14,434 nucleotides of DNA from Bacillota bacterium (GTDB taxonomy: Bacteria; Bacillota; Clostridia; Peptostreptococcales; Anaerovoracaceae). Shown here piece after piece: positions 74 through 14,434 of the stretch. The stretch is from positions 1-14,434 of the forward strand of contig JAFYUX010000064.1 of assembly GCA_017549385.1 (NCBI GenBank), read 5' to 3'. The first letter of the stretch is position 1, and every line of letters begins with the position of its first letter. Both the position numbers and the translations under genes were made by a program. Below the pieces are notes generated by a model, which saw only the letters and a list, made by a program, of their open reading frames with translations, was not told the origin of the DNA and did not search any database.

Positions 74-3000
74 ATGAGACTATTCTTTAGAAAATCATTG
101 TCACTTTTGCTGGCTGTTGTGATGGTGATAAGCATGTTTGCGGTTCCTTCGATGGCTAAAACAGAAGGTACCATTTCAGCTGAAGAAGTAAATGTATATA
201 TCTTGGGAAAAGACGGCAAGAGTGAATGTATTGCTACATATACAGCAGATAAAGAAAATGATACTTATGTAGATAATAACAATAAAGAAATTCCTGGTGT
301 GGTAACTGTCAGTAATTTTACAAATGGTTCTTTAGGTGCAAAAAATTATATTTTATACTCAGGGTCTGATAACGGTAAGTTTTCAAGAGCTCCAGTTGTG
401 ACAAAGTATATTGCGCTTGAGGAGTTTGCAAAGGCTGTTACAGATGGAAAATACAATGCATCATCATGGTTTATAAAAATGAACGCAGGTGATGGATGGG
501 AAACATATTATGGTGTTCCTGATGGTACAAATCGAAAATTGGTTGATGCCAGTGCAAAACTTTATGCCAGTGTAGACTGGGTAAAGGATACCATGAAACA
601 AAATTACACAAGCTATAATCTTTCGGTTGATTCATATGATGATAAATACGAAGTTCCTACTGTGCTTGCAATATGCAGTTACAATGAGCGACTGAATGTA
701 GAAAGACCTGCAGTTGATGGCTTGGAAGCATGGGCTGATGCTCTTGCTGCAAAAAATGATACGGCAAATGCATTGCGTCTTTTCAGTGGGATGGAATCAG
801 GTATTACCAACGGGAAATACATCAATACAGGTTCAAACAGTGAAAAGGGTATATCCAAGATTACATTAGAACCACCTTATTATGTAATTAATGTGGAAGG
901 CGGTATTAAAAATGGTGTTGAAGGTGAGGCTGGGTTTAAGATAACGGCCAATAATGCATCTATATCAACTATGGATAACTGGTTTAAGGCAGGCAGCGAG
1001 GAAATTGTTAAATTAACAGTAATGCCAGATGAAAGTTGTAAAGTAGATCTTTCTGTTAAAACAGAAAGTGGTGATAAAGTTGCTTTAGAAGCAGGCGAAG
1101 CAGGCGTTTATACATTTAGAATGCCAGCAGAAAACGTAACTATTAATACTGTTAAGATTACAGGAGTAACATCTGAAGATTTTACAGGTGGTATATATAC
1201 AATTTCCGAAGGTGGCGAATATAATCTCGGTAAAGATATAGCAGGTACAATCAAAGTTGATACAACTGAAAAAGTAACTCTTACCGGCGGGTATGCTCTT
1301 AGTGAGGATTTAACTGCAACAGAAGACTCATATTCATTTGATTCATTATCTATTGATTGCTCAGGTCTTACTAATGGTGGTGCAAATGTAGAACTGAGGA
1401 ATATGGGCGTTATTGCTCCTGTTTCTGGAAAAAGCATGATTGATTTTACTGGAACAGGTAATATCTTGACTATTAGTGGTATTAATCTGTTGGATTTCAA
1501 CACAGGATTTGGCTCACAGGCTGCAATACATGTGGATAGTAATACGAAACTATTAGTAAATGGTGCGGGAACACTTTATTTATATAAATGTGCTGCAGGA
1601 GCAGGCATTGGTGGAAATAAAGGTGAATTAAATGGCGATATTACTTTTGGTGATGATGCATCATCAACTTTAAATATTTTTGCTAAAGGTACAAAACAAA
1701 GCGCCTTAATCGGAGCGGGTGCAAATGCAGGCAGTGTTAATGATGTGCCTGGTTACATTTCCTTTGTAAGCGGAAGCTACAATTTAATGACAAATTCACG
1801 AGGTGCCTGTGTAGGCGGATCTGCAGGCTCGGGTGGTGCCAGTGATGGAACAAACATATATGTGAAAACTGGAGCTAATGTAAATATTAATGTGGATTAT
1901 ACAGGTGCTGCAGTAGGTGGTGGAGGATACGACTCTGGAAACGATGCATCTGGTGGAATAATTTATATCGATGGTGGCAGCTTAAGGACATATGTAGATA
2001 CGAATGCAGCAAGTAGTGGAGCAACTGGTTATGCAGGTGTTGAATTCATCCAGGGGATAAATGATACAGCAATTACTGCAGATAGAAAGAATTCATCTGA
2101 CGAAACTGTATATAAATGTGTATTTGATACTACAGAATTAATGAAATCAGCAACATCTTTTGAGGTGAAGGTTGATGGTAAAACACATTATATTGGCGGA
2201 TTACATGAATATGGATACATATTTGAAAATACACCAAAAGAAGAGCAGAGTACGAATGGTTTAGTGACAGTGAAAAACTGGTACAAGAATAATGAAAAGA
2301 ATCTGTACTTATACCTCACAGGTAAAAACCATGAAATAGAGGTAAACGGTGAAAAGTTTACTGCAATATTCGATCCTGCCACTGTGGATGATAAAACGGT
2401 ATACACAACTGGGGGATTTGCAATTTTAAAAGATTCAACTGCTTCGTTAGGAGCCCCGGGGAAATTCGAAGTGGGTATTGAAGCAGAAGATATGACCGCA
2501 ACAGTCCCAGTTTCATTAATGGTTTCTTCTAATGGTAAAGGTCTGAAAACTATCAGCTTTAAGGTAAAGTGCCAGTTTCCATTAGAAAAGGTTAAGGTGT
2601 CAGATGAATACACTGCTGTTGTAAAAAAAGCAGATGCCAAGGCTCAGGGTGAAGTTGCAACGGTAGCTGAAACTGGTTCCGGAGAGTATATTGTTGAGAT
2701 AAATAAAAAAGAAGGTACTTTAGAAGCAGGTGCATTAAAACTTGATCTCACGTTTGAAATTTCTGCAGAGACTGCAAAAAAAGAGTATCCGGTAACTTTA
2801 TATGATGGAACATTTTCAGATGGAAATAATGTTGTTCCGTTAGATGTGTCATATGAGGGTTTCAGTATAGGAGTGTATGGTATAACGAGGAATGAAATTA
2901 CGTCCAGTACTGAAAACGGAACTTTAAAATTTAAAGTTGGAGGAACAGAAAATGCAAGTGTAAGAGAAGGTGAAACCGTAGTTGTAGAGACTAAGGCAAA

Positions 3001-5425
3001 TGATGGATACAAGCTCAAAACTGACAGTCTCAAAGTAGCTTGCGGTGATAAAAACATTCCGTTAGATTACAATGCAGATGCCGGTACATATTCATTTAAT
3101 ATGCCTTCAGGGCCGGTAACTGTTACTGCAGAATTTGCTAAGGCGTATAATGTTTTATTAGATAATTCTATTACTAATGGTACAGTAAGTATTGAACCTG
3201 CTTTTGCGGCTTTTGGTGAAAAGGTTATTCTTGAAGTAATGCCTGCGGCAAAGTACAAAATGAAGGATGGTTCATTAAAAGTTACGTATAAAGAACCTGT
3301 TCAGTCTGGTTCAACATTTGCAGCAAGATCAACTGAATACGTGATTAAAGATGTTTCTCTCACACCAGGGGTAAATGCTGGAACTTATATATTCACAATG
3401 CCTGAATATGAGGTTAATGTTGCTGTTGAATTTGAGTTTGATAAAGAACTGGAGGCTCAACAGAAATTAGAAGAACGTCTTAAAGATATGAATCTCACAT
3501 CAACTTATTGGGATGGTAAGTCTGTTGACGTAAGCTGGTACACAGGAAATAAAACTACATATAACATTAGCACGGCTGCAGAGTTTGCAGGTGTTGCAGC
3601 TCTTGTTAACGGTCTCGTAAACAGTAACTGTAAGGTATATACAGGGGATGCTGTATACACTGCAAGTGAGTGGGCTGCAAGTGATTATGTGGCAGGCGGT
3701 TCCGGCAGCACTGGCGGAAATAACGAAGCAACTACGTATTATCATTACGGAATCACAAATTTTGATGGTGTGACTATCAATCTGCTCAACAGTCTTAATA
3801 TGTCTGGCGGTAATTACATGCCTATCGGTGGATCATACCTTATGACAGATGAAAATACATCAACTAAAGTTGGCGGTTCTTTCTACGGTATTTTAGATGG
3901 TTGTGGAAATCGTGTAACTGTTCAGTGTGACAGACACTGTTCCGGAAATTACGGAGACGGCGCTAACGTAGGTCTTATCGGCAGACTTGGTGCACACGAT
4001 AACGATCCTGTTCCAAGAGGTAAGAGCGGCGTATATAATATTGCGGTTTATGGCTCCGTAAAGGCTAACAGATCTGTAGGTGGTGTAGTTGGCAAGATTG
4101 GTGAAACTTCTACAATTGCCACAGTATCAGGTTGTGCCAACTTTGCCTCTGTAACAGGCACAGATGCAAAGGGTACAGGTGGTATCGTAGGCGCAGGCTG
4201 GAACAATGGTGAAATAAAGAACTGTTATAATGCCGGCACGATTTTCAATTCATACAACGCATATGGTGGTATTGTAGGTTCCAATGAGGTTCCTGTAATT
4301 AACTGTTTTAATGTCGGCAAGGTTAGCGGTGCAGGTGCAGCTCCGGCAATTGCCACTGAAAACGGTGGGGGCAGCTACACAAACTGCTACTGGCTTGAAG
4401 GTACAGCTGACATGGGTGTATATAAGAGCGGAAAAGACGGTCTTTCGGCTGGTGCAAAGAAAACATCTGCAGAAATGAAGTCCGAAGAGTTCCTGGAACT
4501 TTTAGGTAGTGCCTTTGATGTTGACTCAGAAAAAATAAACAGCGGTTATCCCGTTCTCTCATGGCAGTCATCAGGAAAACTCCCTGAAGAGGAGGAAAAG
4601 ACAGCTGAAGAACTTACTGCAAATATTGAGACAACAGTAAAGGAAAATAAAGACGGTACAGTAAAGATTACTTTTACAGACAAGGAAAAGAAAGAATCTG
4701 TAGATAAGCTTCCTGCATTTATCAAGGTAAGCTTCCCTGCAAAGGAAGGCTCTGTAGTTGTTCTTGTGGACAAAGACGGCAAGGAAACAATTCTCCCTAA
4801 ATCAGTTATCGAAGACGGCAAAGCGTACATTGCAGTTGATGAAGCCGTAACTGTAAAGGTGGTAGATAACACTAAAGAATTTGCTGACGTGGCAGAAGGC
4901 GAATGGTATGAATCAGCAGTTGATTTTGCATCAAGCCATGGTCTCTTTGGCGGTGTTTCTGAAACAGAATTTGCTCCAAATGCGAAGATGACGAGAGCGA
5001 TGCTGGTAACAGTTCTCCATCGCCTTGAACTTGAATCTGCTGCCAGCAGTTCTGGTTCATTTGGTGATGTAGCCGCAGGTTCATGGTATGCAGATGCTGT
5101 TGCATGGGCCAATACAAACAAGATTGTAGAAGGCTATAACAGTGATACATTTGGTGCAAATGATAATGTTACCCGTGAACAGATGGCTGTTATCCTCTAC
5201 AGATATGCAAAATATATCAAGATGGGTACAGCTGCTGAAGGTGACTTAGGCAAATATACTGATGGTGCCAAGGTTTCTTCCTGGGCAAAGGATGCTATGG
5301 AATGGGCTATTGGTGAAGGTATCATCACTGGCCGTACTGACGGTAGTGCAGATCCTGCAGGGACAGCAAGCAGAGCAGAAGTTGCTATCATGCTGGAACG
5401 TCTTGTAAAACTTATGGTTAAATAA
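74..5425 (+). CDS. Large SLH-anchored modular surface protein (1783 aa)
   Basis: This is a secreted cell-wall-attached protein. A signal peptide (hydrophobic core about residues 8-25, cleavage near SMA-KT at 28) starts it, and GAGGAG lies just before the ATG at 74. From the N-terminus I see: a unique region (30-265); a bacterial-repeat (InlB-B-like) domain ending in the EAGVYTFRMPAENVTI pattern (about 269-363); a Gly-rich beta-helix or carbohydrate-binding-like region (about 372-680) with GIGG/LIGAG/CVGGS/VGGGG turns every 34-36 residues; a cohesin-like beta domain (about 780-935, weak call); two more bacterial-repeat domains (937-1025 and 1025-1120); a GLUG-type region (about 1154-1500); and three SLH domains (about 1603-1653, 1664-1713, 1729-1783). 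SLH domains bind pyruvylated secondary cell-wall polymer. Likely roles are S-layer or adhesion; the ligand is unknown. Codon use changes near residue 1135 (see findings). It follows another SLH gene and abuts a LysR gene. Confidence 0.93.
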   Translation: MRLFFRKSLSLLLAVVMVISMFAVPSMAKTEGTISAEEVNVYILGKDGKSECIATYTADKENDTYVDNNNKEIPGVVTVSNFTNGSLGAKNYILYSGSDNGKFSRAPVVTKYIALEEFAKAVTDGKYNASSWFIKMNAGDGWETYYGVPDGTNRKLVDASAKLYASVDWVKDTMKQNYTSYNLSVDSYDDKYEVPTVLAICSYNERLNVERPAVDGLEAWADALAAKNDTANALRLFSGMESGITNGKYINTGSNSEKGISKITLEPPYYVINVEGGIKNGVEGEAGFKITANNASISTMDNWFKAGSEEIVKLTVMPDESCKVDLSVKTESGDKVALEAGEAGVYTFRMPAENVTINTVKITGVTSEDFTGGIYTISEGGEYNLGKDIAGTIKVDTTEKVTLTGGYALSEDLTATEDSYSFDSLSIDCSGLTNGGANVELRNMGVIAPVSGKSMIDFTGTGNILTISGINLLDFNTGFGSQAAIHVDSNTKLLVNGAGTLYLYKCAAGAGIGGNKGELNGDITFGDDASSTLNIFAKGTKQSALIGAGANAGSVNDVPGYISFVSGSYNLMTNSRGACVGGSAGSGGASDGTNIYVKTGANVNINVDYTGAAVGGGGYDSGNDASGGIIYIDGGSLRTYVDTNAASSGATGYAGVEFIQGINDTAITADRKNSSDETVYKCVFDTTELMKSATSFEVKVDGKTHYIGGLHEYGYIFENTPKEEQSTNGLVTVKNWYKNNEKNLYLYLTGKNHEIEVNGEKFTAIFDPATVDDKTVYTTGGFAILKDSTASLGAPGKFEVGIEAEDMTATVPVSLMVSSNGKGLKTISFKVKCQFPLEKVKVSDEYTAVVKKADAKAQGEVATVAETGSGEYIVEINKKEGTLEAGALKLDLTFEISAETAKKEYPVTLYDGTFSDGNNVVPLDVSYEGFSIGVYGITRNEITSSTENGTLKFKVGGTENASVREGETVVVETKANDGYKLKTDSLKVACGDKNIPLDYNADAGTYSFNMPSGPVTVTAEFAKAYNVLLDNSITNGTVSIEPAFAAFGEKVILEVMPAAKYKMKDGSLKVTYKEPVQSGSTFAARSTEYVIKDVSLTPGVNAGTYIFTMPEYEVNVAVEFEFDKELEAQQKLEERLKDMNLTSTYWDGKSVDVSWYTGNKTTYNISTAAEFAGVAALVNGLVNSNCKVYTGDAVYTASEWAASDYVAGGSGSTGGNNEATTYYHYGITNFDGVTINLLNSLNMSGGNYMPIGGSYLMTDENTSTKVGGSFYGILDGCGNRVTVQCDRHCSGNYGDGANVGLIGRLGAHDNDPVPRGKSGVYNIAVYGSVKANRSVGGVVGKIGETSTIATVSGCANFASVTGTDAKGTGGIVGAGWNNGEIKNCYNAGTIFNSYNAYGGIVGSNEVPVINCFNVGKVSGAGAAPAIATENGGGSYTNCYWLEGTADMGVYKSGKDGLSAGAKKTSAEMKSEEFLELLGSAFDVDSEKINSGYPVLSWQSSGKLPEEEEKTAEELTANIETTVKENKDGTVKITFTDKEKKESVDKLPAFIKVSFPAKEGSVVVLVDKDGKETILPKSVIEDGKAYIAVDEAVTVKVVDNTKEFADVAEGEWYESAVDFASSHGLFGGVSETEFAPNAKMTRAMLVTVLHRLELESAASSSGSFGDVAAGSWYADAVAWANTNKIVEGYNSDTFGANDNVTREQMAVILYRYAKYIKMGTAAEGDLGKYTDGAKVSSWAKDAMEWAIGEGIITGRTDGSADPAGTASRAEVAIMLERLVKLMVK

Positions 5426-6457: not shown

Positions 6458-6871
6458 ATGAAATTAAGCGCTAGAAATCAGTTCGCAGGTAAGGTATCAA
6501 AGGTTACAGAAGGTGCAGTAAACGGCATCGTATCTATCGAAGTAAATGGTACACCAGTATCTGCTACAATCTCAATGGAAGCTATCAGCGAACTCGGTCT
6601 TGCTGAAGGTGTAGAAGCTGTTGCAGTTATGAAGGCTACAGAAGTTATGATCGCTACTGCTGATTCTAAGATCTCTGCAAGAAACAAGTTTGCAGGTAAG
6701 ATTGCTGAAATCAACAAGGGTGCTGTAAATGCTGTAGTTAAGGTGGACAGTGTAATCGGTACTGTTTCTGCTACAATCTCTCTCAACGCAGTAGAAGAAC
6801 TCGGCCTCGTAGAAGGTGGCGATGTAATCGCTGTAGTTAAGGCTACATCTGTAATGGTAGGCTTAGCATAA
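6458..6871 (+). CDS. Molbindin: tandem Mop (TOBE) domain molybdate/tungstate-binding protein (137 aa)
   Basis: This is a small cytoplasmic oxyanion-binding protein made of two homologous Mop/TOBE domains of about 69 residues. They begin SARNQFAGKV (residue 4) and SARNKFAGKI (residue 73). Each contains a VSATIS strand, an ELGL.EG turn and an A.V(M/V)KAT.VM ending, as in clostridial molbindins and the C-terminal di-Mop of ModE. Molbindins assemble into oligomers that store or buffer molybdate or tungstate. There is no helix-turn-helix and no ABC ATPase part, so it is a stand-alone binder. The start is clear: GGAGG sits eight bases before the ATG. Codon use is strongly biased (CTC/CTT Leu, GAA, GCT), suggesting high expression. 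It has its own candidate promoter and a terminator, so it is probably monocistronic. It gives the main hint that the neighbourhood concerns molybdenum or tungsten. Confidence 0.93.
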   Translation: MKLSARNQFAGKVSKVTEGAVNGIVSIEVNGTPVSATISMEAISELGLAEGVEAVAVMKATEVMIATADSKISARNKFAGKIAEINKGAVNAVVKVDSVIGTVSATISLNAVEELGLVEGGDVIAVVKATSVMVGLA

Positions 6872-6893
6872 TTTTTAAATAAATTTGTTTTTA

Positions 6894-6926
6894 AGAGACT
6901 GTCTCCCTCGGGCAGTCTCTTTTTTT
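6894..6926 (+). terminator. Rho-independent terminator after the molbindin gene
   Basis: AGAGACTG (6894-6901) pairs with CAGTCTCT (6913-6920), giving an 8-bp perfect stem extended by GU and GC pairs towards a short pyrimidine-rich loop. It is followed directly by a run of T (6920-6926). It ends the molbindin transcript 22 bases after its stop codon and separates it from the downstream operon. Confidence 0.93.
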
Positions 6927-6947
6927 ATGCCCTAATGGACAATTGGG

Positions 6948-6965
6948 ATATGCAACTTAATATGC
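6948..6965. repeat. Direct repeat ATATGC x2, 12-bp period
   Basis: ATATGC occurs at 6948-6953 and 6960-6965, separated by AACTTA, about 70-85 bp upstream of the -35 of the strong promoter at 7034. The spacing is close to one helical turn, as in some activator sites. An A-rich stretch of AAAC-type repeats (6993-7031) follows and could act as an UP element. Both readings are speculative. Confidence 0.2.
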
Positions 6966-7033
6966 CTAAAACAAAGATAAGCGTTATAAATGCAAACAAA
7001 ACGAAACAAACCAAACTAAAACTAACAAAAATG

Positions 7034-7062
7034 TTGACATGTAAAACCAGAAGTGGTAATAT
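7034..7062 (+). promoter_or_regulatory. Near-consensus sigma-A promoter of the transport operon
   Basis: TTGACA (7034-7039) matches the -35 consensus at all six positions. TAATAT (7057-7062) resembles the -10 consensus, and the spacer is exactly 17 bp. An A-rich UP-like tract lies immediately upstream. Transcription should begin near 7069, which gives a leader of about 340 nt to the SD-served ATG at 7407, or about 375 nt to the GTG at 7444. Such a strong core promoter suggests that control, if any, is by repression or through the long leader. Confidence 0.82.
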
Positions 7063-7101
7063 CAAGATACAGAAGGAGAGAAACTCCCTTTTATTTTTAC
7101 T

Positions 7102-7129
7102 AAGGTTATTTTCGAACTAGAATAACCTT
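7102..7129 (+). other. Leader hairpin 1
   Basis: AAGGTTATT (7102-7110) pairs perfectly with AATAACCTT (7121-7129). A wobble and an AU pair extend the stem, leaving a loop of about six bases that contains part of a TTCGAA palindrome. There is no T run after it, so it is not a terminator. It starts about 33 nt into the predicted transcript. Confidence 0.7.
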
Positions 7130-7144
7130 CGGCGAAATATATCA

Positions 7145-7166
7145 ACACACTCAAAACACACTCAAA
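7145..7166 (+). repeat. Perfect 11-nt tandem repeat in the leader
   Basis: The unit ACACACTCAAA occurs twice back to back (7145-7155 and 7156-7166), with no obvious self-pairing, between hairpin 1 and the long-range stem. An 11-nt period fits either an unstructured repeat bound by an RNA-binding protein or two turns of a DNA operator. Which, if either, cannot be told here. Confidence 0.6.
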
Positions 7167-7170
7167 CGTT

Positions 7171-7264
7171 TCGAAGAGGAAGCGGCTTATCAGCAGAGGT
7201 GGAAAATGTCGTACTTGATTCATTCGGTTTAGATCCGTATATATCACAGTCGCTTCTTTTTCGA
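7171..7264 (+). other. Long-range 14-bp stem in the leader
   Basis: TCGAAGAGGAAGCG (7171-7184) pairs along its whole length with CGCTTCTTTTTCGA (7251-7264), using two GU wobbles. A further GU pair (7185 with 7250) is possible. The stem closes a 66-nt internal segment. This is the closing-helix shape typical of a ligand-binding or multi-branched RNA domain. Confidence 0.65.
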
Positions 7265-7270
7265 ACAATC

Positions 7271-7299
7271 CACCGGATGATGCAGCTTATCATCCGGTG
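7271..7299 (+). other. Perfect 11-bp hairpin in the leader
   Basis: CACCGGATGAT (7271-7281) pairs perfectly with ATCATCCGGTG (7289-7299) around a seven-base loop, GCAGCTT. It follows the long-range stem by six bases. The sequence after it (ACATTGAACC) is not T-rich, so it does not look like a classical terminator. It could be a stabilising or processing hairpin, or the expression-platform stem of a regulatory RNA. Confidence 0.75.
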
Positions 7300-7302
7300 A
7301 CA

Positions 7303-7332
7303 TTGAACCGCTGATTAAAAACTTTCTATCAT
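7303..7332 (+). promoter_or_regulatory. Possible second promoter close to the operon
   Basis: TTGAAC (7303-7308, four of six) and TATCAT (7327-7332, five of six) are 18 bp apart. If used, transcription would start near 7339 and skip the structured leader. It is weaker than the promoter at 7034 and may be chance in this AT-rich stretch. Confidence 0.3.
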
Positions 7333-7339
7333 TATATTT

Positions 7340-7355
7340 ATGGCTATACAGCCAT
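7340..7355 (+). other. Small hairpin near the operon start
   Basis: ATGGCT (7340-7345) pairs with AGCCAT (7350-7355) around ATAC. It ends about 40 bases before the GGGAGGA ribosome binding site at 7395-7401. The stem is short and its significance is uncertain. Confidence 0.3.
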
Positions 7356-7394
7356 CTCCTTAAAATTGCAGGGTTTAAAGTCATAATTGTCATC

Positions 7395-7529
7395 GGGAGG
7401 ACATTTATGGCTTTTAACTTGTTTAGAGATAAATTTGACAGGGGTGAGAAAAACGAAGAGAAAACTTATAGCGATTATGCTGATGCTGGTTGTGATTATG
7501 TCCTGTACACTGCCGGTTATGGCTCTTGA
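7395..7529 (+). other. Strong ribosome binding site with a 40-codon ORF overlapping the next gene out of frame
   Basis: GGGAGGA (7395-7401) is the best Shine-Dalgarno sequence in this region, and it is ideally spaced for the ATG at 7407. That ATG opens a frame of 40 codons (starting MAFNLFRDKFDRGEK) that ends in TGA at 7527-7529. The frame overlaps the start of the following secreted protein, which is read one base further on. It could be a leader peptide, one side of a frameshift, or the true start of the secreted protein separated by a one-base indel (GGGG at 7441 and AAAAA at 7449 are likely places). See findings. Confidence 0.4.
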
Positions 7530-8694
7530 TGATGACGAGTTCAGCGGATATAAGGCTGATACTCTTACTATAAAAGTCGGATATTTTGGCGGACCTTATT
7601 ACGAGAAAGCAGTTTTTACTGTAAATGATCTGTGGGCTATGGATGTAATTTATCAGGATTACACATTTATAGACAATATGCCTTCGGTGGTTATTGATCA
7701 TGTTGCAGGTGTAAGACTTTCAGATGTTATGGAAGCGGCCGGTATAGATGTAAACTCCATAGAATCTTTTTATTTCTGGACAAGAGACAAGTCAAATGAT
7801 TACTACACTTCATACACAAAGAAGGCTCTTATAGACACAAGGCGATACTGCTATTACAGTTTGCCAGACAATTTTGACGAAGAAACCGGCACGGGAAACG
7901 AACTTGCGACTTCCGATAAAGTGCCTGTGGACACCGTATTGGCTCTGGGAGACGACTGGAACAGATGTATACAAGGTGCCACGTTTGGCAGCGACTATAT
8001 GAACCTCAATACCAATACAAGGTTTAGACTCATATTTGGTCAGACAAATGCCTGGGAACGCACAGCAAATCGCAGTGCAAAATGGATCCACGAAATTGTG
8101 GTGGAACTGGGCGGAGCTCCGGTACTGACTTTAGATGATTACAATCTGCAGGGTAAAGTGGGCAGCGTGCTACGTACAAACGCCCACATCCAGGCAGATA
8201 AGACTGTAATGGAAAATGAAAATATTAAGTGGTCTTCCAGCGATGAAAGCATTGCTTCTGTAGATGAAGAAGGAAATATCACTATTCATCAGGATGCACC
8301 TGTAACCATCACTGCAGAATTTGCGGGGGTGACAGCTACGCTGACAGTAAATGGAGCCACTGGTGCCGGAGGAGAAATTCAGGAAGGTGATAATCCTGAC
8401 GCATCCGGAGGTGAAGATCAGGAACTTTCAGAGTCAGACGAAGGCGGTATCTTTGAGATAAAAGAAGCCGAAGTTGAAACTGAAACTGACGAAGGCGGCG
8501 TACAGAACTGGAGAGTATTTGAAATGTCGGAAAATGCCGAGGCGTTACCTGAGATAAAGGATGATGAAAATATGCTGGCCGTGACAGGTGCTGCTGTGGC
8601 AGGCCTTCTGGCACTCAGCGGCGGCGGATATGCAGCCGGATTTTATATGAATATAAAGGGGACTAACAGATATGCTGACAGAAAAACTGACTGA
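7444..8694 (+). CDS. Membrane-anchored extracellular protein with SUOX-like and Ig-like domains (about 416 aa)
   Basis: This is the first gene of the operon. Starting at GTG 7444 gives a clean signal peptide (basic RKTKRK, a hydrophobic stretch, then a cleavage site near PVMA-LD at 27). TTG 7435 and TTG 7387 are alternatives, and none has a good ribosome binding site. Residues about 37-220 look like the molybdopterin-binding (sulfite-oxidase, SUOX) fold: GVRLSDVMEAAGID, a central segment, then TRFRLIFGQ and IHEIVVEL at its end. The position where sulfite oxidases carry the molybdenum-ligand cysteine appears to hold no Cys. An Ig-like Big_2-type domain follows (about 223-304, WSSSDESIASVDEEGNI), then an acidic linker and a C-terminal membrane helix (about 378-401) with a short basic tail. 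It probably sits outside the membrane as a partner of the ExbB/ExbD-like motor encoded next. No enzyme activity is claimed. The start codon is uncertain. Confidence 0.8.
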   Translation: MRKTKRKLIAIMLMLVVIMSCTLPVMALDDDEFSGYKADTLTIKVGYFGGPYYEKAVFTVNDLWAMDVIYQDYTFIDNMPSVVIDHVAGVRLSDVMEAAGIDVNSIESFYFWTRDKSNDYYTSYTKKALIDTRRYCYYSLPDNFDEETGTGNELATSDKVPVDTVLALGDDWNRCIQGATFGSDYMNLNTNTRFRLIFGQTNAWERTANRSAKWIHEIVVELGGAPVLTLDDYNLQGKVGSVLRTNAHIQADKTVMENENIKWSSSDESIASVDEEGNITIHQDAPVTITAEFAGVTATLTVNGATGAGGEIQEGDNPDASGGEDQELSESDEGGIFEIKEAEVETETDEGGVQNWRVFEMSENAEALPEIKDDENMLAVTGAAVAGLLALSGGGYAAGFYMNIKGTNRYADRKTD

Positions 8695-9322
8695 TGCTCT
8701 GCGTGCCATAGCGGCATCTATGCAGACTCCGGTAATAATCGTACTTCTTATTCTGATTGCGGTAGCAATCGTGATGGCAGGCACACTTATTGCCGAACTT
8801 ATAACTGAAAAAAGACACATGAAGGTAAAGCTTCCAGAACTTCTCAATGCTCTTCAAAAGGGCGAAAGACCGGCAGAAGAAATTATCACAGAAAGCGGAC
8901 TTCTCAAGAGACAGAAAAACGCTCTTCTCACTGTGCTGGCACAGCGTGAACTTACTCCGCTTAAGAGAGAGTCTCTTGCAGGAGAACTGATGGAGGCGGA
9001 AGCTGATCATTATGATTTCAGAGTAAAGATTACGGATCTGGTTATGAGACTTGGCCCTATGTTTGGTCTGCTTGGAACTCTTATTCCGCTGGGTCCTGGT
9101 ATTATTGCTCTTGGCAGAGGTGATACATATACTTTGTCAGAGTCTCTGCTGACTGCATTTGACACTACTATTGCAGGTCTTATCGCGGCAGCGGTGGCAA
9201 CAGTGATTTCAATGATTCGCAAGCGCTGGTATGCCAGATACATGGGCAATCTCGGCGCTGTTATGGAAAGTCTTCTTGAGGTAATGGAACATGATGAACA
9301 GATGGAAACTGAAGAGGCGTAG
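8672..9322 (+). CDS. MotA/TolQ/ExbB-type proton-channel protein (216 aa)
   Basis: This is an inner-membrane component of a proton-driven motor of the ExbB/TolQ/MotA family. One membrane helix lies near the N-terminus (about 19-44), followed by a cytoplasmic charged region (about 46-120). Two further helices carry the family core: LGPMFGLLGTLIPLGPGI (127-144) and LLTAFDTTIAGLIAAAVATV (about 160-180), with the typical Thr pair after D164. Length and topology match ExbB/TolQ. The ATG is preceded by AAGGGG at good spacing, and the gene overlaps the preceding one by 23 bases, implying coupled translation. The next gene encodes its ExbD-like partner. There is no tonB- or receptor-like gene in the window. 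A flagellar MotA is excluded by size and neighbours. Confidence 0.9.
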   Translation: MLTEKLTDALRAIAASMQTPVIIVLLILIAVAIVMAGTLIAELITEKRHMKVKLPELLNALQKGERPAEEIITESGLLKRQKNALLTVLAQRELTPLKRESLAGELMEAEADHYDFRVKITDLVMRLGPMFGLLGTLIPLGPGIIALGRGDTYTLSESLLTAFDTTIAGLIAAAVATVISMIRKRWYARYMGNLGAVMESLLEVMEHDEQMETEEA

Positions 9323-9638
9323 AGGCTCAGGCAGATTCAGCTCATACAAGATGGAAAGCGAAGATATCAACCCAATGGAATATGTGGCCAATCTGGCGGA
9401 CGTTATGCTGGTGTTTGCCTGCGGGCTGATGCTGGCGCTGATTACATACTGGAATGTAGACGTGGTTGGCATAGGTCAGACGGCTGTAGACATAAATCAG
9501 GGCCAGGAAGTGACTTCTCAGATGCAGAACCTTACAGATGAACAGGGTGAAGGTCTGGAAGGCAGTGGTCTCAACGAATACGGAAAGGTTTATCAGGATC
9601 CTGAAACAGGCAAACTCTATATGGTTATGGAGGGCTAG
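9291..9638 (+). CDS. DUF2149 protein, ExbD-like partner of the channel (115 aa)
   Basis: This is a small single-span protein with a basic cytoplasmic N-terminus (KLKRRRGSGR), one membrane helix (about 33-55) and an extracellular tail of about 60 residues. The helix begins ANLADVMLVFACG, with an aspartate at D37. This resembles the LVDVMLV motif of ExbD/TolR, where the membrane Asp carries the proton. The overall pattern fits the DUF2149 family as I remember it, including the tail ending YQDPETGKLYMVMEG. DUF2149 genes occur beside ExbB-like genes in methanogens and some bacteria (from memory). Here it overlaps the ExbB-like gene by 32 bases. The tail is far shorter than the ExbD periplasmic domain, so any partner contact must differ. 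ATG 9294 is an equally possible start. Confidence 0.85.
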   Translation: MMNRWKLKRRRGSGRFSSYKMESEDINPMEYVANLADVMLVFACGLMLALITYWNVDVVGIGQTAVDINQGQEVTSQMQNLTDEQGEGLEGSGLNEYGKVYQDPETGKLYMVMEG

Positions 9639-9640
9639 AT

Positions 9641-10156
9641 ATGGATATGAACAAAAGTGATAATAAGAAATCTGCATACCGTAAAATTCTGGCGTTGCTT
9701 ATTTCTGTGTTAATGTTGTTATCTCTTGCCGGCTGTGGAGACGGCTCCGCCGACATTTCTTCCTACGGAGACACTCCCATAGCTGTTGCGGGACTTACAG
9801 ACGAAGAGTTTGCAATAACTCCAAATCAGCTTCTGGAACTGGAATGTGTATCCCGTACTGCTACAGGTGCGACAGCTAAAGCCGGCACAGTAAGTGTAAA
9901 GGGTCCGCTTCTTGAAACGTTTCTTGCAGAGTATGGATGCAAATCGTCAGATTTTAACAAAATCAGATTTCTGGCAGGTGATGGATACAAGGTTGTGCTG
10001 AGAAACGAGTACCTCACTGACTATGAAGTGGTCATGGCAGTAACAGGCAGCAAAGAACCTCTGGGAGAACAGCAGCAGCCTATGAGACTTCTCATACCGG
10101 AAGCCGAGTCAGCAATGTGGGGGTATAACATTATCCGTATAGAATTTGAAAGGTAA
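9641..10156 (+). CDS. SUOX-fold lipoprotein (171 aa)
   Basis: This is a secreted lipoprotein. After a basic N-terminus and hydrophobic segment comes the lipobox SLAGC, with the lipidated Cys at 32. The mature part resembles a minimal molybdopterin-binding (sulfite-oxidase-type) domain. LLELECVSRT is followed about 18 residues later by VKGPLLETFLAEYG, then IRFLAGDGYKVVL and a terminal PMRLLIPEA...WGYNIIRIEF, the order seen in SUOX folds. C69 falls where sulfite oxidases place the Cys that binds molybdenum; this is an alignment by eye. GGAGGG at 9629-9634 serves ATG 9641, two bases after the previous stop; ATG 9647 is an alternative. It may be a ligand- or cofactor-binding partner of the ExbBD-like motor rather than an enzyme. 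Moco binding is unproven. Confidence 0.8.
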   Translation: MDMNKSDNKKSAYRKILALLISVLMLLSLAGCGDGSADISSYGDTPIAVAGLTDEEFAITPNQLLELECVSRTATGATAKAGTVSVKGPLLETFLAEYGCKSSDFNKIRFLAGDGYKVVLRNEYLTDYEVVMAVTGSKEPLGEQQQPMRLLIPEAESAMWGYNIIRIEFER

Positions 10157-10162
10157 TATCTT

Positions 10163-11248
10163 ATGAGAAAGAGACAAATAACAGCTCTGATTCTTGTACT
10201 GGTGATGCTGACAACATCAGTATTTTCCATGACAGGGTGTGCTGCTCCGGAAAAAGAAAACCATATGGAAACTGTGATATTTACTGATTCATGTGGCAGA
10301 GAAGTCGAGATTCCAACTGAGATAGATGAAATTGTACCTTCTGGGGATCTAGCGCAGATTATTCTTTATACATTTGATCCGGAGCTGTTTCTCGGTTTTT
10401 CTACCGCTCTGACAAAGGTTCAAAAACAGTTTATAGATGAAAAATACTGGGAACTGCCTGTTTTCGGTAAATTCTACGGTAGCGGGTCTACAGTAAATTA
10501 CGAAGAAATCATCAAGGCTGATCCTGATGTAATTATCGATATGGGCGAATTTAAAGAAGGTATTCGGGAAGATATGGATAAGCTCCAGGCTGATACAGGA
10601 ATTCCTGTGCTTTTTATCCAGGCTAATATAGATACTATGGATGAAGCCTACGAAGCTCTTGGAAAGATTACTGGAAATATTGAACGAGGAAAAACTCTTT
10701 CTACATATATAACAGACACTATTGAGGAAATGGAAGCTCTGGCATCTGTTATTCCTGAAAGTGAACGTAAACGTGTGCTCTATGCTCAAGGCGAATACGC
10801 AACAGAGGTAAACGCCGTGGGAAGTATTCATTCAGAGATCCTGGACATTATCGGTGCTGTAAATGTGGCTGAACTTGGCGAGCTGGGCAAAGATACCGCT
10901 AAAGAAGTCTCTATGGAACAGATTATGCTCTGGGATCCTGAACTCCTTATACTGGCTCCAGACAGCTGTTACGAAGATATCTTTGATGATGAAGCGTGGG
11001 CTGGTATAACTGCAGTAAAAAATGGAGACGTATATGAGGCTCCTCTGGGTCCTTACAGCTGGATTGACCGACCTCCTTCAGTTCAGAGAATTCTGGGTAT
11101 GCAGTGGTTGGGAAGTATTATATATCCTGAAGAGTTCAGCTACAGCATAGAGGAGAGAGCGCAGGAATTTTTTCAGCTCTTCTTACATTATGATATCAGT
11201 GATGCGGAGCTCTTCGCGATTATGAAGAATTCGGTGAGAATTCAGTAA
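10163..11248 (+). CDS. FecB/BtuF-type substrate-binding lipoprotein of an ABC importer (361 aa)
   Basis: This is the extracellular ligand-binding component of a type-II ABC importer. The signal peptide ends at lipobox SMTGC (Cys26). The mature protein has the two-lobe helical-backbone pattern of the cluster A-II family: DSCGREVEIPTEIDEIVPSG near the start, EEIIKADPDVIIDMG in lobe one, a long linker helix, then EQIMLWDPELLILAP and a second lobe containing GPYSWIDRPPSVQRILGMQWLG. Family members bind ferric siderophores, haem, cobalamin, nickel or cobalt chelates, or molybdate/tungstate (as in MolA). The ligand cannot be read from sequence by eye. It lies 6 bases after the SUOX lipoprotein, and its permease and ATPase follow after two inserted enzyme genes. 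GAAAGGT precedes the ATG. Confidence 0.9.
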   Translation: MRKRQITALILVLVMLTTSVFSMTGCAAPEKENHMETVIFTDSCGREVEIPTEIDEIVPSGDLAQIILYTFDPELFLGFSTALTKVQKQFIDEKYWELPVFGKFYGSGSTVNYEEIIKADPDVIIDMGEFKEGIREDMDKLQADTGIPVLFIQANIDTMDEAYEALGKITGNIERGKTLSTYITDTIEEMEALASVIPESERKRVLYAQGEYATEVNAVGSIHSEILDIIGAVNVAELGELGKDTAKEVSMEQIMLWDPELLILAPDSCYEDIFDDEAWAGITAVKNGDVYEAPLGPYSWIDRPPSVQRILGMQWLGSIIYPEEFSYSIEERAQEFFQLFLHYDISDAELFAIMKNSVRIQ

Positions 11249-11264
11249 ATATAGAATTTTCTTG

Positions 11265-11293
11265 CAGGGTTCGCTGTAAAAGTACGAACCCTG
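11265..11293 (+). other. Intercistronic hairpin after the binding-protein gene
   Basis: CAGGGTTCG (11265-11273) pairs perfectly with CGAACCCTG (11285-11293) around an 11-base loop. It sits in the only gap of any size in the operon (70 bases). The tail TTGTAATG is not a proper T run, so it is at best a partial terminator. Such hairpins after the binding-protein gene often protect the upstream mRNA or reduce read-through, raising binding protein over permease. Confidence 0.7.
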
Positions 11294-11318
11294 TTGTAAT
11301 GCATAAAACCAGGAAAGG

Positions 11319-12032
11319 ATGGTGGCCGTTATGAGAAAAATGCCCCCCTGGACAGAAAAAAGAATCGAATGGTATCAGCGGGCTGTAGCCTGGAACAGGT
11401 TTGACAGAGTGCTGGCTGACCATATCTGCAGGTTTATAAACGAAGGCGAAACTGTGTGTGATATGGGTTGTGGAACTGGATATGTCGCAATGGAACTTGC
11501 ACGTAGAGGTTATGAGACCACAGCTTTTGATATGAATGAAGTTACGATGGCTTATCTTAGACAGGAAGTGCCTGCAAGAGGGTTGCAGGACAAGCTTTCG
11601 CTGATTGAAGGTTCCTGGGATGACCTGGATGTCGAAGGCATGTGGGACAACGTGGTTATGGTATTTGCAGGGCACATGGACAAGGAACTGGAGAAGTTTA
11701 TCAGATTTTGCAGAAAGCGTCTGATTGTCATTATCCGTGAAAGTAGAAAAAGTCATGTGCAGGCAAGTGGCATCACGCCGCAGATTCATACAAAGCCTGC
11801 AGATATAGAAAAAGTACTGAGATGCAGAAGGTATGAAATGGTGCCGGTGGTAACGGAATTTGGACAGCCGCTTGAATCAATGGAAGAAGCTGTCGAGTAT
11901 CTTAAAACTTTTGGTGCTGACACAGAATCTGAGAAAAGTGCTCTCAAAAATATAATCCGATGTTTTGATAGCGAGTATACGTATTTTCTTCCAAATGAAA
12001 AGAAGATGCGTATGTATGTAATTGAGAGGTAA
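11319..12032 (+). CDS. Class I SAM-dependent methyltransferase (237 aa)
   Basis: This is a cytoplasmic methyltransferase with a Rossmann fold. Motif I is VCDMGCGTGYVAMELARRG (D48, G50, G52, G54 of the glycine loop). The acidic ribose-binding residue follows in TTAFDMNE (D71), then LIEGSWDDL and the strand WDNVVMVF. The C-terminal part carries no recognisable substrate domain. It starts either at ATG 11319, with AGGA four bases upstream, or at ATG 11331 (MRKMPPW), and it ends close to the next start. Its place between the binding protein and the permease suggests that it modifies the imported ligand or a related cofactor. The methyl acceptor is unknown; small-molecule, corrinoid or thiol substrates are all possible. 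Confidence 0.88.
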   Translation: MVAVMRKMPPWTEKRIEWYQRAVAWNRFDRVLADHICRFINEGETVCDMGCGTGYVAMELARRGYETTAFDMNEVTMAYLRQEVPARGLQDKLSLIEGSWDDLDVEGMWDNVVMVFAGHMDKELEKFIRFCRKRLIVIIRESRKSHVQASGITPQIHTKPADIEKVLRCRRYEMVPVVTEFGQPLESMEEAVEYLKTFGADTESEKSALKNIIRCFDSEYTYFLPNEKKMRMYVIER

Positions 12033-12036
12033 GATT

Positions 12037-12585
12037 ATGCATGTTTTCCTGACAGGCAATATACAGGTTGGAAAGACAACTGCCATACAAAGATACATAA
12101 ACAAGTACGGATATAAGGTGAAAGGTTTTCGAACTTTATCGGGGCCTTTTGCTGAAGATGGCAGTTCCGAGATATATATGGTGGCAGCAGACAACCCTGA
12201 AGATCTCAGAGAAGAAAACATCGTAATCTGGAGACATGGTTATTATGCACAGAAAGGTGTAACTGTAAATCTGGACGTGTATGAGAATTATGGGGTGGAG
12301 CTTCTGGAAAATACGGAAGGTTGCGACATCATCATGATGGATGAGCTGGGGCCTAAAGAATTGAATGCAAAGGAATTTGTGAAAAGAGCAAAAGCCTGCA
12401 TTGATGGCGATGTGCCTGTTATGGGAGTTCTGATGAAAAAAGGGTCACCTTTATTTTACTGGGTGAAAAATCATCCAAAGGTTACTGTTCTGGAAGTGAC
12501 CGAAGAAAACAGAGACAGAGTATTTCAGGAACTTCCTCCTGTTGAAAGATGGGGTGAACCAGGTGCTTTTGACAAATGTAGATAA
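12037..12585 (+). CDS. P-loop nucleoside-triphosphatase, THEP1/NTPase_1-like (182 aa)
   Basis: This is a small cytoplasmic NTPase. The Walker A motif lies at the very start (TGNIQVGKTT, residues 6-15), followed by YGYKVKGFRTLSG, the pattern of THEP1-type proteins (…GFyT.E). Walker B is CDIIMMDELGP (D102 and E103 are the acidic pair). ATG 12037 is preferred over TTG 12022 because AGAGGT lies six bases upstream of it and because it places the P-loop at the normal distance from the N-terminus. THEP1 relatives hydrolyse NTPs slowly in vitro and their cell role is unclear. MobB-like or metallochaperone GTPases are a less likely alternative because of the GFRT segment. It lies four bases after the methyltransferase and overlaps the permease gene. 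Confidence 0.85.
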   Translation: MHVFLTGNIQVGKTTAIQRYINKYGYKVKGFRTLSGPFAEDGSSEIYMVAADNPEDLREENIVIWRHGYYAQKGVTVNLDVYENYGVELLENTEGCDIIMMDELGPKELNAKEFVKRAKACIDGDVPVMGVLMKKGSPLFYWVKNHPKVTVLEVTEENRDRVFQELPPVERWGEPGAFDKCR

Positions 12586-13633
12586 AAAAGAAAAGAGGGT
12601 ATCCGGCAGTACTGCTGTAAAGGGTATTACAGGGTACAGATTAAGGTTTACTGTACTGGTGGTTATATTTGCTGTGGCTTTTTTTGGTTCCTTTATGCTG
12701 GGTAGATATCCGGTTATGCCCTGGGATCTTGTAAAAATTGTACTTTCAAAGTTTATAAATATTGAAACGACATGGAGTTCCAGTGTTGAAGCTGTTGTAA
12801 ATCTCCGTATCGTGAGAGCTGCAGCTGCCGTGTTTATAGGGGCTGCACTCGGTGCCGCAGGCACTGCTTATCAGGGAATGTTCAGAAATCCTATGGTGTC
12901 GCCAGATGTACTGGGTGCTTCCAACGGCGCTGCATTTGGTGCGGCTCTGGCGATTTTCTGTTCATTCGGTTATGTTGGCATCACATTGTCTTCATTTGGT
13001 TTTGGTCTTGCAGCTGTTCTCCTGGCATACTCCATAAGTCGAAAAGGCAAACTGAATGAAACATTAGGGATGGTTTTAGCCGGTATGATGATAAGCACAC
13101 TGTTCTCCTCCGCGACTTCGTTCCTTAAACTCATAGCTGATACTGACAGTGTGCTGCCGGCTATTACTTACTGGCTTATGGGAAGCCTTGCATCTGTGCG
13201 TGTAAACGATCTGGTGTTTGCAGGCATCCCGATTACTGCCGGTCTTGTGGTGTTGTATCTGCTGAGATGGAGAATCAATCTTCTGACAGTAGAAGAAAAT
13301 GAAGCAAAAAGTATGGGTATAAACACCACTCGTCTCAGAGCGGTAGTTATAATATGTGCAACTTTAGTAACTGCTGCCAGTGTATCTGTCAGCGGTCTTA
13401 TCGGATGGGTAGGTCTGGTTATACCACATATCTGCCGTCTCGTATTTGGGCAGGATTACAGCAGGCTTATGCCTGCTTCTATGGTGATGGGTGCAGCTTA
13501 TCTGCTGGTTGTTGATGCGGTGGCACGAATGGCGGCTTTATCCGAGATACCTCTCGGCATCCTGACATCAGTAATAGGTGCTCCTGTATTTATCTGGCTT
13601 ATCATGACTGGAGGCAGTAAAAATGGAGCTTAA
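12563..13633 (+). CDS. FecCD/BtuC-type ABC importer permease (about 356 aa)
   Basis: This is a membrane permease with the many-helix layout of the FecCD family. Diagnostic segments are GAALGAAGTAYQGMFRNPMVSPDVLG (Q104, R108, N109, P110 with the 12563 start), SNGAAFGAALA, the coupling-region GLIGWVGLVIPHICR (278 on) and the terminal EIPLGILTSVIGAPVFIWLI. One gene is present, so the permease would be a homodimer. The start is uncertain. GTG 12563 has GGTGA five bases upstream and overlaps the NTPase gene by 23 bases; TTG 12542, GTG 12554 and TTG 12569 are alternatives in the same frame. It works with the binding protein encoded upstream and the ATPase encoded next. Confidence 0.93.
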   Translation: MLLTNVDKKEKRVSGSTAVKGITGYRLRFTVLVVIFAVAFFGSFMLGRYPVMPWDLVKIVLSKFINIETTWSSSVEAVVNLRIVRAAAAVFIGAALGAAGTAYQGMFRNPMVSPDVLGASNGAAFGAALAIFCSFGYVGITLSSFGFGLAAVLLAYSISRKGKLNETLGMVLAGMMISTLFSSATSFLKLIADTDSVLPAITYWLMGSLASVRVNDLVFAGIPITAGLVVLYLLRWRINLLTVEENEAKSMGINTTRLRAVVIICATLVTAASVSVSGLIGWVGLVIPHICRLVFGQDYSRLMPASMVMGAAYLLVVDAVARMAALSEIPLGILTSVIGAPVFIWLIMTGGSKNGA

Positions 13634-14399
13634 TGTTAAAAATGTGACATTTTCATATGGTGACCATCACGTTCTTAAGGGATGTTCCTTTTCTGCACAG
13701 GCTGGAGATCTGATTGCGGTACAGGGACCAAATGGTGTAGGAAAGAGTACACTTTTTCAATGTATGCTGGGGTTGCTCAGTGGCTATGGCGGAACGATAA
13801 CTTGTGACGGTGATGATATAAAGTCTCTTTCAAGAACTGAGATTGCAAGACGTATTGCATATATTCCGCAAAATACCGCTCCGGTTTTCGATTATACAGT
13901 AGAAGAAACCGTAATGATGGGTGCAGCAGCCCAGCTGGGAATCTTCGCAAGACCTGGTGAAAGTCACAGGCAGGAAGCGGAAAGACTTCTGGAAAGTCTG
14001 GGGGTTTTAAGACTGGCTAAGCGGAGCTTTGCAAAACTCAGCGGTGGCGAGCAGCAGCTGGTACTTGTAGCCAGAGCTCTGATGCAGAAGGCAAAGATTC
14101 TCATTATGGATGAGCCTACAGCAAATCTGGATTTTGGCAATCAGCATATGGTGATGTCTCGCATAAAGGCGCTGGCTGAAGAAGGTTATTTAATTCTTTT
14201 TTCCACTCATAACCCGGACCAGTCGTTTTTATACGCAAATAAAGTGCTGGCTGTAAAGGATGGCGCAGTTAGAGCCTTTGGCAGACCTGAAGAAGTTCTT
14301 GACTCGGAAATGCTGTCAGAATTGTATGGCATAAAAATTTCACTTAAGAGTTTTGAAACCAGCGGGAAAAATCTGCTGGTATGTGTGCCGGAGGAGTAA
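13623..14399 (+). CDS. FecE/BtuD-type ABC importer ATPase (258 aa)
   Basis: This is the cytoplasmic ATPase of the importer. Walker A is GPNGVGKST (35-43), the Q-loop segment is AYIPQNTAP, the signature is LSGGEQQ (139-145), Walker B is ILIMDEP (D163, E164) and the switch histidine is H196 in STHNPDQS. Length and order match the FecE/FepC/BtuD group. It overlaps the permease gene by 11 bases, so translation is likely coupled. No key residue is missing. No substrate can be assigned from the ATPase alone. Confidence 0.95.
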   Translation: MELNVKNVTFSYGDHHVLKGCSFSAQAGDLIAVQGPNGVGKSTLFQCMLGLLSGYGGTITCDGDDIKSLSRTEIARRIAYIPQNTAPVFDYTVEETVMMGAAAQLGIFARPGESHRQEAERLLESLGVLRLAKRSFAKLSGGEQQLVLVARALMQKAKILIMDEPTANLDFGNQHMVMSRIKALAEEGYLILFSTHNPDQSFLYANKVLAVKDGAVRAFGRPEEVLDSEMLSELYGIKISLKSFETSGKNLLVCVPEE

Positions 14400-14402
14400 A
14401 AA

Positions 14403-14434
14403 ATGAGAAAGAAAACACTGATTGTTAACGGGTC
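14403..14434 (+). CDS. Start of a further operon gene (partial, first ten codons)
   Basis: GGAGGAG (14390-14396) is ideally placed six bases before an ATG at 14403. The frame reads MRKKTLIVNG and runs off the window. It lies three bases after the ATPase stop, so it belongs to the same operon. The K-T-x-x-VNG start resembles the N-terminus of the [2Fe-2S] part of molybdenum hydroxylases (aldehyde oxidoreductase or xanthine dehydrogenase family, which often begin …KTI.VNG.E). That would fit the molybdenum theme, but ten residues cannot prove it. Confidence 0.6.
   Translation, partial: MRKKTLIVNG

Follow-up and report, generated by a model that had tools for sequence, protein, structure and literature searches.

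An ExbB/DUF2149 motor pair beside SUOX-fold surface proteins with a shared C-terminal anchor in Bacillota: a possible receptor system for tungsten or molybdenum cofactors

Organization of the operon

The stretch analysed here, referred to as the window, is the entire 14,434-nucleotide contig JAFYUX010000064.1 (C46) of a Bacillota bacterium from the family Anaerovoracaceae, the metagenome-assembled genome of which is 57% complete. From position 7444 onwards, the plus strand carries one tight operon in which a putative proton motor of the ExbB/DUF2149 type stands between two surface proteins with a predicted SUOX fold, followed by the genes of an importer. Adjacent genes overlap or lie at most 6 bases apart, the single exception being a 70-base gap.

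The first gene, SUOX1 (7444..8694), encodes a signal peptide, a SUOX/PruR-like domain (residues ~39-221), a Big_2 domain (225-309), a linker, a WRVFEMS box and a C-terminal membrane helix (375-405), the last two of which, with the box reading VQNWRVFEMS, form an anchor at 8500..8694 (residues 353-416). Next come the gene of an ExbB/TolQ-type proton channel subunit (8672..9322; PF01618, 35.6 against 22.9 bits, E 9e-9, above the cut-off), a DUF2149 gene encoding a putative ExbD-like axle with one membrane helix (9291..9638; PF09919, E 3e-12, above the cut-off), and SUOX2 (9641..10156), encoding a lipoprotein with a predicted PruR/SUOX fold. The operon continues with a FecB/BtuF-type binding lipoprotein (10163..11248; PF01497, E 2e-21), an S-adenosylmethionine-dependent methyltransferase (11319..12032; PF13649, E 1e-11) whose top NCBIfam match, CpaM, at 53.5 bits is well under the cut-off of 180, a THEP1-like NTPase_1 (12022..12585; PF03266, E 4e-26), a FecCD/BtuC-type permease with an uncertain start codon (12542..13633; PF01032, E 9e-81) and a BtuD/FecE-type ATPase (13623..14399; PF00005, E 5e-33). 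Together, the PF01497, PF01032 and PF00005 genes make up a complete type II (BtuCDF/FecBCD) importer set. An earlier interpretation of this DNA made from its letters only (the sequence-only reading) had placed an ExbBD-like motor, two SUOX-fold surface proteins and a complete importer in one operon, and the gene calls and Pfam matches bear this out.

The motor pair and the SUOX-fold proteins

Among 26 aligned ExbB sequences, the motifs LGPMFGLLGT..GPG and AFDTT..G are invariant or almost so, the invariant residues being P129, T136, L137, P139, G141, P142, G143, A162, F163, D164, T166 and G169. The aspartate in the membrane helix of DUF2149 (residue 37) is present in 50 of 50 aligned sequences, and is placed by hhalign opposite the aspartate in the DVMLV stretch of E. 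coli ExbD, in what is a weak alignment (E 0.004, probability 8%, 19 columns). When compared with PDB sequences, the DUF2149 profile did not retrieve ExbD, and the ExbB profile found E. coli ExbB at E 0.7 only.

In an alignment of 28 SUOX1 sequences, where the others are 21-62% identical to the window SUOX1, the architecture consists of an N-terminal hydrophobic segment, a SUOX-type domain, Big_2, a variable linker and the C-terminal helix. For the models of both SUOX1 and SUOX2, PruR tops the SUOX-type matches, level with sulfite oxidases, and the fold predicted in the window is a SUOX fold of PruR size. PruR is described as binding pterins without the Mo-ligating cysteine (PMC13259868). No cysteine occurs in the invariant or 90% columns of the SUOX1 alignment, and in SUOX2 a cysteine lies close to the expected position in some relatives only, as judged by eye. 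A strict twin-arginine translocation (Tat) motif was found in 0 of 102 proteins of the SUOX-type clusters, and a loose RR in 6, by a simple pattern rather than a trained predictor and with protein starts taken from open reading frames (ORFs). Both proteins are predicted to adopt a SUOX/PruR fold, to be exported by a Sec-type route, and to lack the function of a molybdenum cofactor (Moco) enzyme. SUOX1 is likely a motor-coupled receptor, and SUOX2 likely a second ligand holder.

Pfam domains were tallied for 40 of the 46 surface proteins that flank the SUOX motors, and for 24 of 29 SUOX1 orthologues plus the window SUOX1. PF00174 was matched in 11 of these 25 SUOX1 proteins and in 15 of the 40 flanking proteins, 17 of which carry S-layer homology (SLH) domains. 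Shr-like_HID, a hemoglobin-interacting domain family, is present in 7 of the 40 (alignment A7; for instance L067, 1774-5451), where it could have a role in pulling ligands off proteins. Metallophosphatase-like secreted proteins, recognized by eye, recur near the SUOX motors (L046, L048, L049, L050, L058, L059, L073, L076, L078 and L079), with the protein in L048 occupying the position of SUOX2.

Distribution and partner proteins

DUF2149 was surveyed in 61 genomes of the family and order and in 398 genomes drawn from the phylum, the window's own genome being counted in both, and is present in 13 of the former and 34 of the latter. All 48 DUF2149 places outside the window and two named loci gave a set of 50, 49 of which were classified; L082, where phmmer did not detect DUF2149, was left aside. 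In 31 of the 49, SUOX1 lies directly before ExbB (29 assigned by sequence cluster, and the fragment L045 and L050 by hand), SUOX1 and its motor being the constant element. In ten others, a large exported CobN/HmuS-type protein lies directly after DUF2149 (PF02514 shown for one), in three a CobN fragment precedes ExbB and a binding protein follows DUF2149 (family 5, shown for L069), and five are other or truncated. A DUF2162-type membrane protein occupies the place of HmuT beside the motor in nine loci, eight of the CobN class and L089 (Pfam shown for one). A Pfam scan of the window proteins gave no match to PF02514 (CobN) or to NEAT domains.

The association also holds when viewed from the side of the receptor. 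Of the 398 phylum genomes, 21 contain a SUOX1 match above 360 bits; DUF2149 is present in 20 of these, and in the remaining one (G397) the sequence stops at a contig edge. In G442, a second SUOX1 with a full anchor lies at a locus where the ExbB and DUF2149 profiles are unmatched, the pair being located elsewhere in the genome, and a single motor may thus serve several receptors.

The importer is less constant. FecCD and FecB-type genes are found within eight genes of DUF2149 in only 4 of the 31 SUOX loci (L002, L048, L051, and L060, where they are on the opposite strand) and in the window, and the window operon is therefore one arrangement of a broader module; an operon with the importer as a fixed unit was rejected on the same count. 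In L061, L062 and L073, an energy-coupling factor (ECF)-type set after DUF2149 replaces FecBCD, the S component being PF09819 in L062 and relatives of it in the other two, and FecCD genes are also present in L090 of the CobN class. What stands of the sequence-only proposal is a proton motor, in a cell that appears to lack an outer membrane, tied to SUOX-fold surface proteins whose cargo is likely a cofactor or metal. The importer as an integral and defining part does not stand, the ExbB/DUF2149 pair being mostly apart from FecBCD, which that reading had itself named as a refuting result.

Some loci depart from these classes in detail. In L069, L071 and L077, the C-terminal fragment of CobN keeps the anchor and ABC (ATP-binding cassette) ATPase genes lie upstream, the family 5 protein of L069 carrying Cu_amine_oxidN1. 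In L052 (7326-12983), the motor is flanked by an 881-residue surface protein that has no Pfam match, ends in HEID and a membrane helix, and may stand for yet another class of partner.

A shared C-terminal anchor

At the C-terminus of SUOX1, conservation resumes as a WRVFEMS-like box and a helix with a short, often basic tail, and the CobN-type partners end in a similar box and helix although their outside parts are unrelated to SUOX1. A profile of SUOX1 tails, from which L081 was excluded on account of its masked tail, was run against the final 70 residues of all 2621 ORFs. At the top of the ranking came its own members together with the L045 fragment, followed by 10 of the 14 CobN-type or CobN-fragment tails (E 7e-7 to 0.05), with the first background tail appearing below these ten at E 0.2. 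A strict box, defined as [FYH]E[IMVL] within 45 residues before the C-terminal helix, occurs in 32 of the 39 partners whose helix was detected, as against 5 of the 101 background proteins that likewise end in a helix (Fisher P 1e-19). By class, it is found in 18 of 25 SUOX1 tails, 11 of 11 CobN tails and 3 of 3 fragments, leaving 7 helix-detected SUOX1 tails without it; 5 more SUOX1 proteins fall under the helix threshold and outside the 39. The window SUOX1, which ends in WRVFEMS and a helix, has the arrangement common to the CobN-type partners. The box was rejected as a universal mark since it is missing from three Bacteroidota HmuS tails.

The anchor is likely a docking module for the motor, as judged from these alignments, and may hold the place that TonB or TolA has in diderms, with the topology reversed.

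Cell envelope

Omp85 (PF01103) was matched in 1 of the 61 family and order genomes, the window's own genome (57% complete) being negative, and in 0 of 28 motor-bearing phylum genomes (19 of the SUOX class and 9 of other classes); the profile matched 7 of 14 control genomes. The sole match among the 61 (G009:C209:282-794) lies in a 550-contig assembly and is possibly contamination. The cells look monoderm, as had been supposed from the window, a conclusion that rests on kin because the genome itself is incomplete. No TonB or TonB-dependent receptor gene was seen in the window, these families not having been searched genome-wide.

Riboswitches and tungsten enzymes

Rfam scans covered all 31 SUOX loci and 8 of the 10 CobN loci, with CobN loci L084 and L091, as well as L052, L053, L065, L069, L071, L077, L086 and L089, left unscanned. 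A riboswitch for the molybdenum or tungsten cofactor (Moco/Tuco; RF01055) was found in 12 of the 31 SUOX loci, amounting to 15 RNAs that are mostly directly upstream of SUOX-type genes, and the cobalamin riboswitch (RF00174) in 8 of the 8 CobN loci (11 RNAs). The two do not cross over, with RF01055 in 0 of the 8 CobN loci and RF00174 in 0 of the 31 SUOX loci. Because some genomes are rich in Moco RNAs (0 to 26), the count was set against the density of these RNAs across whole genomes (156 in 28, with spans entered by hand). Within 10 kb of a motor, 15 RNAs were seen versus 1.0 expected (P 4e-13), spread over 12 genomes. Every Moco RNA found in G388, G393, G415 and G286 sits at the motor locus.

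All 15 motor-linked RNAs lack stem P3, as evidenced by alignment and consensus and also by pattern and eye, whereas Moco RNAs distant from the motor in the SUOX-class genomes G121 and G389 do carry it. RNAs of the P3-less kind have been proposed as sensors of the tungsten cofactor (PMC2408646). Genes for tungsten-type aldehyde ferredoxin oxidoreductase (AFOR) occur in 18 of the 19 SUOX genomes of the phylum draw versus 209 of 378 others, in a comparison uncorrected for relatedness.

Five genomes (G442, G121, G194, G075 and G389) have 13 to 26 Moco/Tuco riboswitches each; some of these are arranged in runs (L098, L119), and forms that have P3 occur as well as forms that lack it. At eight CobN loci (L056, L057, L083, L085, L087, L088, L090 and L092), an exported CobN-type protein and the DUF2149 motor are accompanied by cobalamin riboswitches in genomes where Omp85 was not found, and these loci likely represent a corrinoid- or tetrapyrrole-handling system of monoderms.

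Relation to known systems

The motor pair has been published as HmuU and HmuV, encoded in heme loci of Bacteroidota, and is depicted there as the power source for TonB and for HmuR, the receptor in the outer membrane (PMC12583661, PMC10100974). The pair makes up the last two genes of hmuYRSTUV, with DUF2149 named there (PMC10434189). As in the window, ExbB-like HmuU and DUF2149-type HmuV accompany an exported, C-terminally membrane-anchored protein that handles a cofactor, in this case the heme de-chelatase HmuS, which is predicted to have membrane helices at both ends (PMC13227078, PMC12583661). The Hmu system differs in its diderm hosts with a TonB-dependent receptor, in a partner of the CobN type rather than the SUOX fold, and in the three Bacteroidota tails without the strict box. 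PMC13227078 allows for the possibility that HmuT, HmuU and HmuV influence HmuS.

The plasmid pGLOV01 of Trichlorobacter lovleyi (L097, 5844-17253) bears on what the pair might drive, as it carries DUF2162-ExbB-DUF2149-CobN followed directly by ExbB-ExbD-TonB and receptors. It would be strange for two engines to serve one task, and the pair is more simply read as an engine private to CobN, so that the DUF2149 motor need not be a Ton motor. The T. lovleyi CobN has the sequence FEMK; it is the top match of the CobN-tail profile (E 0.03), a rank that it does not reach with the profile of SUOX1 tails. The cluster adjoins cobalamin genes (cobT, bzaF and the gene for cobyric acid synthase). A tblastn search on plasmids gave zero matches with the CobN-class DUF2149 and four records with ExbB.

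With ExbB-ExbD-TonB and TolQ-TolR-TolA, the system shares a channel of the ExbB family, a single-helix partner with an aspartate in what may be a DVMLV-like stretch, and a one-helix third protein with a long outside part. Here, however, DUF2149 replaces ExbD, TonB and a receptor are unseen in the window, an outer-membrane assembly gene was not found, and the presumed transducer is anchored at its C-terminus and is itself likely the ligand-binding protein. PruR resembles SUOX1 and SUOX2 in its secretion signal, its SUOX fold and the absence of the conserved Mo-ligating cysteine. PruR feeds a cyclic di-GMP enzyme or a kinase (PMC13259868), whereas the neighbours of SUOX1 and SUOX2 are a motor and importers, and some relatives are under Moco/Tuco riboswitches. 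The BtuCDF/FecBCD and MolBCA type II importers likewise have a binding lipoprotein, a FecCD permease and an ATPase in one operon, but in the window these are linked with the proton motor and the SUOX proteins as well as with a methyltransferase and an NTPase. Among the matches listed from open-licence full-text literature, no description of a SUOX-linked motor or of the shared anchor was found, and nothing there contradicts the sequence-only statement that no system of this composition has been described; the anchor, the CobN/HmuS-type partner class and the riboswitch pointer to a W/Mo cofactor go beyond that reading.

Proposed function and alternatives

We consider it about an even chance that a TonB-like proton motor works a SUOX-fold surface receptor for the W/Mo-pterin cofactor, loading or releasing the ligand for import. 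The ligand of the SUOX receptor is, we infer, the W/Mo-pterin cofactor or its metal. Gene order, anchor and riboswitches are what the sequences show, and the folds are predicted; the remaining steps might run as follows. Surface proteins that have SUOX domains, and in many cases SLH domains, would catch the ligand, and SUOX1, anchored beside the motor, would receive it from them. The docking site of the ExbB/DUF2149 motor would be the membrane anchor at the C-terminus of SUOX1, and proton flow through ExbB would turn DUF2149, a 5:2 rotation that would pull or turn SUOX1. SUOX2 would then take over the ligand and, together with the binding protein, hand it to the FecBCD permease of the window, with an ECF-type set in place of FecBCD in three relatives. 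The cargo would be the cofactor in intact form, and not tungstate or molybdate by itself. More tentatively, this may represent the first machine for uptake of the finished W/Mo-pterin cofactor, in which a motor without TonB or an outer membrane plugs into interchangeable surface proteins by means of a common C-terminal docking helix, SUOX-fold proteins serving W/Mo-pterin and CobN/HmuS-type proteins serving corrinoid and heme.

A number of observations weigh against a receptor for the W/Mo-pterin cofactor driven in this manner. DUF2149 does not match PF02472 (ExbD), PF09919 being its sole Pfam match up to E 0.1, and its likeness to ExbD appears confined to one short stretch. Four of the 14 CobN-type tails (ranks 42, 43, 54 and 87) and that of SUOX-class L050 (rank 46) fall amid the background of the SUOX1-tail profile, and the reverse profile finds CobN tails and two further CobN pieces, leaving SUOX1 tails unseparated from background. 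In the window, no riboswitch was found at the Rfam gathering score, at E up to 1 over 6860-7480, or with a custom model derived from the 15 RNAs at motor loci. No Moco/Tuco riboswitch was found at the four other FecBCD-bearing SUOX loci, and 19 of the 31 SUOX loci are negative in the Rfam and custom-model scans, so that for these, as for the window, the ligand is carried over by homology. The custom model also matches SUOX loci with no motor in view (L128 and L130-L133, of which L131 ends before the motor's place), and the RNA thus follows SUOX rather than the motor; a single SUOX-class genome can hold up to 26 Moco RNAs. No AFOR gene was found in the 57% complete genome to which the window belongs, and the pocket of PruR is described as too small to take Moco (PMC13259868). 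Membrane fractions of B. thetaiotaomicron de-chelate heme in vitro with NADH (PMC12583661), and a proton gradient is thus not strictly needed in the hmu system. Lastly, 22 of 28 SUOX-class genomes, including that of the window, contain MoaC, a gene for synthesis of the pterin cofactor, so that pterin scavenging would be unnecessary for most of these cells. Moco auxotrophy was accordingly rejected as the reason for uptake, MoaC standing at 7 of 9 against 26 of 52 in the relatives (P 0.16).

The alternative that fares best, although doubtful, is that the system takes up tungstate or molybdate, with the SUOX proteins holding the oxyanion or a metal complex and FecBCD acting like Haemophilus MolBCA. 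Among the eight solved relatives of the binding lipoprotein, the fifth in rank is HI_1472 (E 9e-10), which we take to be MolA, a binder of molybdate and tungstate. The distribution of MoaC suggests that metal rather than pterin is scarce, a Mop gene lies upstream in the window, and molybdate transporters, too, can be preceded by Moco RNAs (PMC2408646). However, the fold is predicted to be one that binders of pterin and Moco have, and the transporters linked to the motor, FecBCD and the ECF type of L061, L062 and L073, belong to families for large organic ligands. To our knowledge, oxyanion import in known systems needs no surface motor. As to whether the cargo is the intact cofactor or the metal, MoaC and the kinship with HI_1472 favour the metal, and the pterin-type fold and transporter families favour the intact cofactor.

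It is unlikely that the SUOX proteins are surface Moco/Tuco oxidoreductases which the motor anchors or assembles in the S-layer, the riboswitches then reflecting use of the cofactor. The PF00174 matches would agree with such a role, as would the Moco RNAs that precede Mo enzymes and the two P3-less RNAs of Syntrophomonas wolfei located upstream of putative sulfite oxidases (PMC2408646). The P3-less pair, left as exceptions in 2008 (PMC2408646), would fit the main reading if those genes encoded SUOX-fold receptors of the present kind. SUOX1, however, has no invariant cysteine. In addition, the strict Tat signal is absent from all 102 proteins, whereas Moco enzymes normally receive their cofactor prior to Tat export. 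Least likely of all is a tetrapyrrole cargo such as heme or corrinoid, like that of the CobN/HmuS class, with purely structural SUOX domains, since the use of the same motor by CobN-type proteins with cobalamin riboswitches, the BtuCDF/heme type of importer and the Shr-like_HID domains, named for hemoglobin binding, are set against SUOX loci with Moco/Tuco but never cobalamin riboswitches, and against a window in which CobN and NEAT domains are unmatched.

A 2022 review of 5:2 motors holds that whether and how Ton orthologues work in Gram-positives is still to be tested (PMC9389320), and in a 2025 study Ton systems in monoderms are termed likely non-functional (PMC12204202). The shared anchor offers a testable answer, namely that the motor acts at the cytoplasmic membrane, on proteins that handle cofactors. 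HmuU and HmuV might be read anew in this light, as they may act on HmuS instead of, or besides, the TonB receptor, although HmuS was active in membrane fractions given NADH alone (PMC12583661). The movement of Moco between cells is treated as an open question (PMC9793310).

Neighbouring genes and the start of SUOX1

Upstream of the operon, positions 74-5425 encode a 1783-residue SLH protein, followed by LysR and Mop genes. The SLH protein was considered as a third SUOX protein and is a doubtful candidate, its likeness to SUOX1 being weak and uncertain (6.7 bits, near its N-terminal part) and PF00174 unmatched. The Mop (molbindin-type) gene, with two TOBE domains, lies on the plus strand at 6458..6871 (TIGR00638, E 8e-37) and fits a Mo/W context. 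A hairpin with a T run at ~6890-6930 closes the stretch holding the LysR regulator and the Mop gene, which is probably a transcription unit apart from the motor operon.

The start of SUOX1 is uncertain, as GTG 7444 opens a typical signal peptide yet lacks a clear ribosome site. Overlapping it out of frame is a 40-codon frame (7407-7532) with ATG 7407 behind GGGAGG, which may be a leader peptide, a minor assembly error or chance.

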